Of a stretch of DNA of 31,071 nt, positions 1-17,725 are shown piece by piece (within the stretch, counting starts at the first letter, position 1; each line of letters begins with the position of its first letter). Both the position numbers and the translations under genes were made by a program. This DNA comes from a virus, in the IMG/VR virus record IMGVR_UViG_3300019759_000013, positions 1-31,071 of that record, one strand, 5' to 3'. A model generated the notes under the pieces. The model did no database searches, was not told the origin of the DNA, and was given only the letters and a program-made list of their open reading frames with translations.

Positions 1-182
1 GCTAAGGCGCTGAATCCAATGCCGTTTTTAAATAAGTATGATCCGCCGACTTGGTTTAGTGTGAAATTAAAGCTTCCCTTATCACCCCAATTCATAGCAA
101 CCTTGGAGGCCTTAGACTCCAGCTGCCATTCAGCATGGGATATGCTTGAAATAAGTAATAGTGAGATAAGTAATGTTTTCAT
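1..182 (-). CDS. Exported protein, N-terminal part (cut by window edge)
   Basis: The gene starts with ATG at 182 and reads leftward off the window, so only 60 codons are visible. The first 16 or so residues form a clear signal peptide (MKTLLISLLLISSISHA, probable cleavage after SHA). The visible mature part alternates polar and hydrophobic residues (FNFTLNQVGGSYLF), as in beta-strands. Periplasmic export or insertion into the outer membrane is likely, but no family can be assigned. A GGAG ribosome site lies 8 bases upstream, inside the 3' arm of the hairpin at 183-239. It is the last leftward gene visible and has its own candidate promoter. It does not resemble the other exported protein at 17279. 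Confidence 0.7.
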   Translation of the reverse strand, partial: MKTLLISLLLISSISHAEWQLESKASKVAMNWGDKGSFNFTLNQVGGSYLFKNGIGFSAL

Positions 183-239
183 TTGTTACGCTCCGTGTGT
201 TTGTGTAACTAAATATACACCACACAGGAGCGATAACAA
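183..239 (-). promoter_or_regulatory. Promoter embedded in a ribosome-site-sequestering hairpin
   Basis: Positions 183-194 and 227-239 form 12 base pairs with one bulged base (233). Inner pairs 196-200/222-226 and 203-207/216-220 extend the stem to about 22 pairs around an 8-base loop. Read on the minus strand, the same DNA holds TTGTTA (239-234), a 16-base spacer and TATATT (217-212), a plausible sigma70 promoter. RNA started near 205 would contain only the 3' arm, leaving GGAG (194-191) free. RNA read through from upstream would fold and hide it. The sequence features are seen directly; the regulatory logic is inferred. Confidence 0.6.
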
Positions 240-266
240 GTTGAAGTTTTCGATAGGTTTGTCGGG

Positions 267-590
267 TTATTTATCGGCTAGGGCGATCAATACTAGGCAC
301 TCGCCGATGGCGCGGAGTGGGTTGTTGTTTTCTGCATCGTTATCCATGTAGATTGCAAAACCATCGCCGGCCTGAATATCTGTACCTGCCCAGAATTTTC
401 CGTGGTTATCTTTTATTACTGTAATGCCATATTTAAATGCCAATGGCATAGTTAGGTTGTAGTCTTCTAAGTAGTCATAGCCCATGTATTCATCGTAGTA
501 ACCATTGTAGTTACTTTTATCAGGATAGAGCCAAATAATAGCTCTATTCAGCTCATTGTCACTTAGCGAGCTTACTTGTTCTGGTGTCAT
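267..590 (-). CDS. DUF2591/NinX-like phage protein
   Basis: This 107-residue protein has the layout of the phage DUF2591 family (NinX-like). An N-terminal segment SDNELNRAIIWLYP is followed by a middle part in which a region of the substrate or cell state is named 'LAFKYGITV', then a W-containing strand (KFWAGT). The family-typical NPLRA motif near the C-terminus comes with a short hydrophobic helix (ECLVLIALA). Function is unknown in the family. The ATG at 590 overlaps the stop of the 28-codon gene upstream (ATGA), so the two are translationally coupled. Family assignment comes from memory of motif order, not a search. Confidence 0.7.
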   Translation of the reverse strand: MTPEQVSSLSDNELNRAIIWLYPDKSNYNGYYDEYMGYDYLEDYNLTMPLAFKYGITVIKDNHGKFWAGTDIQAGDGFAIYMDNDAENNNPLRAIGECLVLIALADK

Positions 591-8424: not shown

Positions 8425-8467
8425 TTTTGTGTGTTATTGTTCAGCCACTTACATAGGAGATCACAAA

Positions 8468-8716
8468 ATGACATACGCAGAAAAAATAAAACAGCAGCAA
8501 AAGGACAAGCTAACATGTTTAGTTAGCTACTTTGGCGGGCAATCTCAATTAGCCAGTGAGATGGGCGTTTCAAGCCAAGCAGTTTTTAACTGGATTGCCC
8601 GTGGCCGTATTAGTGCAAAATGTGCAATCTTAGCAGAAATAAAAACAGACGGGGATTTCAAAAGGGAAGATCTAAGACCGGATGTTATTTCATGGGAAAA
8701 TAAGGAGCAAAAATAG
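8468..8716 (+). CDS. YdaS/Cro-like transcriptional regulator
   Basis: The 82-residue protein carries one helix-turn-helix at about 24-44 (GQSQLASEMGVSSQAVFNWIA), followed by RGRISAKCAILAEIKTDGDFKREDLRPDV. That tail is the standard ending of YdaS/Cro-type phage regulators. I start at ATG 8468, where AGGAG lies 10 bases upstream, not at the in-frame GTG 8429. It is the first rightward gene, directly facing the leftward operon, as Cro does in lambdoid phages, and probably binds the AAAAGT/ACTTTT operator at 8400-8415. No CI-like gene is present beside it. Confidence 0.8.
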   Translation: MTYAEKIKQQQKDKLTCLVSYFGGQSQLASEMGVSSQAVFNWIARGRISAKCAILAEIKTDGDFKREDLRPDVISWENKEQK

Positions 8717-15821: not shown

Positions 15822-15854
15822 TACCATAGCCCCGTAGGTCGCTCCGCCTACACT

Positions 15855-15892
15855 GCCCGACTAGGTTTACTCCTTGCCTAGTTGGGCTTTTT
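15855..15892 (+). terminator. Strong intrinsic terminator after phosphoesterase gene
   Basis: GCCCGACTAGG (15855-15865) pairs with CCTAGTTGGGC (15877-15887) over 11 base pairs including one G-T pair. An 11-base loop separates the arms and a TTTTT run follows. It lies 33 bases after the stop of the phosphoesterase gene. Confidence 0.9.
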
Positions 15893-17278: not shown

Positions 17279-17725
17279 ATGAAAACCATCAAAATCACAA
17301 TGGCCACACTACTGCTAATCCTAGCTTATTCGCTAGTGGCAGAAGACACAGAGGCCGGCCAGTCAATCTATGCTGGATTATACACGCAGCACTACTCAGG
17401 CAGCGAAAACTACAACGAAGACAACCGCGTTATCCAATACCAATACAACGACTCGGGCCGATTCTATGGCGCTGCTACGTTTAAAAATTCGTACAGTGTG
17501 CGTTCGTATCAAGCAGGTGCTGGGCGCTACTGGAAGGACGGACAAAGCGAGCTAGGCGCTGGTGTGAGTGTTGTTTATGGATACAAAGGCCATCTAAAGA
17601 CAGTCGGACTTGGCTTGATTATCGTGCCTGGTGTTTATTACGAATATAAACTAGGCTATGCAATAGGCGTAAAGATGATTGTTATGCCGTCCGTGTACAA
17701 TATTGGGTTTAATTATGCGTTTTAA
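17279..17725 (+). CDS. Outer-membrane beta-barrel protein encoded by phage
   Basis: The 148-residue protein has a signal peptide (about residues 1-21 or 1-26, KTIKITMATLLLILAYSLVA). Alternating strands follow: QSIYAGLYTQHYSG, RVIQYQYNDSGRFYGAATFK, SYQAGAGRYW, GAGVSVVYGY, VGLGLIIVPGVYYEYKLGYAIGVKMIVMP. The last residue is Phe (NIGFNYAF), the beta-signal read by the BAM insertion complex. The length suits an 8-strand barrel (OmpX/PagP size class). Phage-borne barrels such as Lom alter the host surface, so superinfection exclusion or receptor masking is a fair inference. AAGGAGC precedes the ATG and the gene starts right after a terminator, so it is probably a separately controlled gene. Confidence 0.75.
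   Translation: MKTIKITMATLLLILAYSLVAEDTEAGQSIYAGLYTQHYSGSENYNEDNRVIQYQYNDSGRFYGAATFKNSYSVRSYQAGAGRYWKDGQSELGAGVSVVYGYKGHLKTVGLGLIIVPGVYYEYKLGYAIGVKMIVMPSVYNIGFNYAF

Follow-up and report, generated by a model that had tools for sequence, protein, structure and literature searches.

Genomic setting of the barrel gene

The window analysed here is the complete IMG/VR record IMGVR_UViG_3300019759_000013 (31,071 bases), a fragment of a tailed-phage genome that encodes a Sak4-like protein, a RecE-like exonuclease, a helicase, a DNA primase, a terminase, a portal, and a major head protein; the nearest relatives of its primase (34-50% identity) include those of Pseudoalteromonas phage H103, Vibrio phage pYD21-A, and Listonella phage phiHSIC. 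A leftward operon, running from 8325 to 267 and made up of genes that mostly overlap or are tightly spaced, leads into the gene for an outer-membrane barrel, which starts at 182. The last operon gene ahead of it (267..590, minus strand; phrog_444-like, 107 aa) stops 27 nt before the stem of an RNA hairpin that covers the start of the barrel gene. In relatives the corresponding distance is 26-27 nt, from which ribosomes finishing the upstream gene would be too far away to melt the stem by ordinary reach. The terminator scan found no terminator-like site on the gene strand between the operon and the barrel gene.

Other features of this phage group bear on its regulation and envelope. A small repressor-like protein (phrog_35) is encoded at 8429-8716 beside divergent operon starts, and a search of eight contigs of the group for an integrase found none. 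A TET-associated glycosyltransferase (PF20691, phrog_842) occupies 670-1845, and at the matching spot the related contigs L008, L018, and L056 have a cytosine-methyltransferase-like gene instead; judging from these arrangements, DNA-modification genes are swapped at this one position. A 148-aa gene matching phrog_3600 (PagP-like lipid A acylation protein) at 17279-17725 is a possible second envelope-modifying gene.

Within the window the barrel gene (3..182, minus strand) is cut by the contig end and encodes 60 aa; in relatives the product is 166-169 aa long. The full protein, taken from these relatives, has a signal peptide, eight predicted strands, and F as its final residue, and its structural model (pLDDT 88) matches the barrels of OmpA, Ail, NspA, and OmpX with E-values of 9e-9 to 5e-6. 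The product is thus predicted to be an exported, eight-stranded outer-membrane barrel, in keeping with the exported cell-surface protein proposed in the first-pass annotation; receptor masking and exclusion are among its conceivable roles. No curated family scores above its cut-off (PF13505 falls below) and no PHROG was assigned. Named phages yielded neither near DNA relatives nor protein relatives of the full barrel, and bacterial genomes yielded no protein relative; matches of the 60-aa fragment to Enterococcus tail fibres are weak (E about 0.3) and were set aside as chance.

The mature barrel is highly variable, with 53-60% DNA identity between types (L005:4001-4501, L009:1025-1534, L018:3001-3510, L020:439-945 on the minus strand, and L024:1656-2165 on the minus strand), and is flanked by a conserved leader and signal peptide on one side and a conserved C-terminus and 3' flank on the other. 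This looks like exchange or diversification of surface loops.

A hairpin over the ribosome-binding site

Minus-strand RNA of the start region, CUUGUUAUCGCUCCUGUGUGGUGUAUAUUUAGUUACACAAACACACGGAGCGUAACAAAUG, forms a two-part stem in which 239-222 pair with 200-183 and 220-216 then pair with 207-203. The 5' arm (222..239, minus strand) contains a single bulged base, 233, and 16 of its 18 columns belong to the consensus stem of the seven haplotypes described below; the 3' arm (183..200, minus strand) is nearly invariant in relatives. The inner stem and its AT-rich loop (203..220, minus strand) occur as a single copy in the window, and four of the five inner pairs are kept in all seven haplotypes. 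Arms at 183-194 and 227-239 with one bulge, and more pairs inside them, had been proposed from inspection of the sequence; both were recovered, the further pairs being 222-226 with 196-200 and 216-220 with 203-207.

The fold is far more stable than its shuffled versions: in a 111-nt context its energy is -31.0 kcal/mol, against -13.9 +/- 2.9 in dinucleotide shuffles (z -5.9; 0 of 200 shuffles), and in a scan of the contig by 20,674 windows of 62 nt, covering both strands, only one fold is more stable. That one, at 15829-15890 and followed by TTTTTATT, looks like a terminator ending the primase/transfer-protein operon. A search of positions 1-700 with the Rfam covariance models, up to an E-value of 1, returned no match.

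The Shine-Dalgarno sequence GGAG (191..194, minus strand) lies within the 3' arm, as first reported, 8 nt before the ATG at 182-180. In the computed folds of the long RNA the Shine-Dalgarno sequence is paired in a stable helix, as in genes of the T4 gene e kind. Of 47 likely genes, the barrel gene has the most occluded start, with 20.5 kcal/mol needed to free the initiation region, and the next gene needs 12.6. The proposal that RNA from the upstream operon folds over the ribosome site while a shorter RNA is free agrees with computed opening energies in all relatives: to open the stretch from GGAG to AUG costs 11.7-17.2 kcal/mol on the long RNA and 2.2-4.6 kcal/mol on an RNA that starts after the -10 box, which was modelled with a start seven bases after that box and has a CA-rich leader predicted to be unpaired.

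Alternatively, the hairpin might terminate the upstream operon and be followed by a separate promoter, since it stands 27 nt after an operon gene and its middle is G+C-rich. The T run that should follow a G+C-rich stem in an intrinsic terminator is absent on both strands, the terminator scan found nothing at this place, and a better candidate lies 3' of the barrel gene. This candidate, present in relatives (about L005:4531-4563), is a terminator-like stem, CGTCTGC/GCAGACG, with a 9-nt loop, followed by TTTTCTATTT; the pattern scan missed it because a 9-nt loop is above the limit of that scan. It is retained in L056, a relative in which the hairpin and the gene have been lost together, and a terminator role for the hairpin is accordingly very improbable.

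The L056 junction, at which ...CTAGCCGAT joins CACTCGTAGCC..., removes hairpin and gene as one piece. At L056:5440-5560 the last barrel codons (SLVASF-stop) and the same operon terminator remain; because of this gene remnant and terminator, L056 represents a deletion and not an ancestral empty site. Since L056 keeps the terminator without the gene, the terminator belongs to the operon and the barrel gene is nested inside, as the last gene before this likely terminator.

Conservation and pair-preserving changes

Nine viral contigs, the window included, carry the barrel gene, and they provide seven distinct hairpin haplotypes; over 1,277 bases the window does not differ from L006, and the two may represent a single phage. 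Although the proteins diverge to 43-49% identity, every gene carrier retains the hairpin and the GGAG, along with both hexamers (TTGT[TG]A and TATATT) at their 16-base spacing. No gene carrier has lost the complementarity of the arms: the consensus fold of the seven haplotypes has 20 pairs, and 139 of the 140 pair cells are paired. Matches to the hairpin pattern elsewhere were discarded, five in bacterial genome contigs for their unrelated contexts, and those in L023 and most of L030-L048 as chance matches in contigs that do not carry the gene.

The conservation of paired changes, suggested at the outset as a check, was found at a few positions. Pair 6:55 of the lower stem (alignment A4) is U-A in four haplotypes, G-U in two, and G-C in one; this is the single pair with a two-sided change, and the three sequences that are changed there are closely related to one another. 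Pairs 9:53 and 12:49 of the same alignment alternate between C-G and U-G, which are one-sided, pair-preserving changes. When the partners are slid along the alignment, pairing falls to 22-69%. A shuffle control reaches the observed pairing in 15 of 500 trials, and is less decisive because there are few independent change events.

In the three most divergent relatives the 5' arm differs from that of the window at 6-7 of 20 bases and still pairs; pairing this good arises in 7-10 of 3000 trials when an equal number of changes is made at random, and in 2.5-5.5% when those positions are filled with random letters. In L007 and the L018 group, pairing is maintained by a shift of register and not by neat compensation. 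Chimeras gave a mixed outcome: the window 5' arm joined to the L018 3' part is about equal to the L018 combination (-23.2 versus -21.7 with its own arm), and joined to the L024 3' part it is worse (-21.1 versus -25.2).

These data also bear on whether the inverted repeat is a DNA operator, bound by a repressor or activator of an overlapping promoter, with the RNA fold as a by-product. The repeat does overlap the hexamers of the promoter, its inner dyad (GTGTA-N8-TACAC) has symmetry, and small DNA-binding proteins are encoded by the phage. Yet further copies of either palindrome were not found at up to 3 mismatches, and the end of the inner dyad is broken in three relatives. Compared with its complement, the gene strand gives the better fold in seven of seven haplotypes, and changes use G-U pairs, which are possible only in gene-strand RNA; pairing of that RNA therefore fits better than a DNA palindrome, and an operator is quite improbable.

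A coincidence of a strong hairpin with a promoter-like motif is barely credible. Some strong fold is to be expected somewhere when a whole contig is scanned, and promoter motifs occur in the region at background density, but this hairpin coincides precisely with a start site, and seven haplotypes retain it with changes that preserve the pairing. That an RNA hairpin is conserved over the ribosome site is well supported.

The candidate internal promoter

On the minus strand, a -35-like hexamer TTGTTA (234..239; TTGTGA in L018, L020, and L024) and a -10-like hexamer TATATT (212..217; invariant in all haplotypes) are separated by a constant 16-base spacer and extend across the 5' arm and loop, at the position originally noted. 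From the -10 position the transcription start is predicted at 204..206, giving a short leader that is predicted to be unpaired. The motif, which matches at 9 of 12 positions, is sigma-70-like and weak against background: 17 sites of equal quality were found in the region, and 17.1 are expected from shuffles. Because motif density equals background, the case for promoter activity rests on placement and conservation and not on motif strength. By chance, only about 0.015-0.025 promoter-like sites are expected to start RNA in the useful stretch of 24 bases that separates the 5' arm from the GGAG, and the bases TGTATATTTA at the loop are invariant across haplotypes though only partly paired. The relatives share a near-invariant CTATCGAAA (window 240-269) in the stretch from the upstream stop codon to the stem; it is perhaps an upstream promoter element.

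Release by some other route than a promoter has to be weighed here, as the evidence is firmer for the hairpin than for the promoter. The hairpin could block translation of read-through RNA and be relieved through RNase III cutting, for which stems with bulges are possible sites, or through a protein, a small RNA, or another signal, and the promoter motif would then be incidental. Against this, all haplotypes have the hexamers, spacer, and loop in common, and RNA from a promoter at this place would be missing the 5' arm entirely. A thermometer is disfavoured, opening being predicted to be unfavourable throughout 10 to 45 C. Relief of this kind is considered unlikely, with some weight still given to it, and the internal-promoter switch is moderately supported on the strength of placement and conservation.

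A probable translational insulator with an escape promoter

The arrangement probably represents a translational insulator that carries its own escape promoter, following the logic of T4 gene e in an unrelated phage group. RNA begun upstream and reading through the leftward operon would form the 183-239 hairpin, which would bury the leader from the GGAG as far as the start codon, and the outer-membrane protein would not be made from this long RNA. RNA begun inside the hairpin, at about 204-206 under the direction of TTGTTA and TATATT, would lack the whole 5' arm; its unstructured, CA-rich leader of about 22-24 nt would leave it open to translation. With the long RNA occluded and the short RNA lacking the 5' arm, the surface protein would therefore be made only when its own promoter fires, and not as a by-product of the operon. 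We infer that such repression operates in the cell and that its purpose may be to prevent or limit production of a membrane protein while the operon is strongly expressed.

The first-pass annotation had invoked the logic of the T4 lysozyme gene e. Sequence-level tests support that logic, but the promoter is of a sigma-70-like and not of the T4 late type: inside the hairpin, where TTGT[TG]A-16-TATATT stands in all seven haplotypes, the T4 late promoter TATAAATA does not occur, and TATATTTA differs from TATAAATA at two bases. Because of this promoter type the timing 'switched on late' is not implied, and protection from operon read-through is a better-supported purpose than late timing.

A wider proposal is put forward tentatively, and with somewhat more doubt than confidence: these phages may exemplify a non-T4 class of surface-protein genes that are shielded from read-through of the operon by a hairpin holding their own housekeeping-type promoter, with the protein made in a quiet or carrier state and not in the lytic burst, and with the block of promoter, hairpin, and signal peptide fixed while the mature barrel varies widely. 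If the mechanism is correct, the T4 lysozyme device is not tied to T4 late promoters and is also used by an unrelated phage group, for the different purpose of holding a membrane protein outside the programme of an operon whose transcript it shares. Phage annotation would then call for caution, as membership of an operon would not imply co-expression.

Comparison with known systems

Phage morons and the Ail/Lom-type surface barrels are a known comparison group for the protein. Like them, the present gene encodes an eight-stranded barrel on a phage, apparently has its own promoter, and is absent from one relative. Unlike Ail and Lom, it has no sequence match to the family, and it resembles Ail, OmpA, and NspA only in its fold. 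As for a moron, its own promoter is likely; the terminator, however, is common to the operon, and the absence in L056 is a deletion with a gene remnant.

For the RNA, the transposase genes of IS10 and IS50 provide a parallel in their fold-back protection against outside transcription, in which read-through RNA from outside hides the ribosome site and RNA from the gene's own promoter lacks the 5' strand. Those genes belong to transposon ends; here there is no transposase and there are no terminal repeats.

In T4 gene e, the ribosome site is inaccessible on the long early RNA, and RNA from the late promoter lacks the 5' strand, with an effect of about 100-fold, and T4 relatives have similar leaders (PMC3014915). 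The same hairpin logic is described for I-TevI, segB, and mobE in a second account (PMC2988022). The barrel gene resembles these T4 genes in that the ribosome site lies in the 3' arm on the long RNA, a predicted promoter lies in the 5' strand and loop and would give RNA without that strand, and similar leaders are retained in relatives. It differs in its sigma-70-like promoter, where T4 has the late promoter, and in its product, an outer-membrane barrel and not a lysozyme, capsid protein, or homing endonuclease. T4 and this phage are unrelated, and the case is one predicted from sequence.
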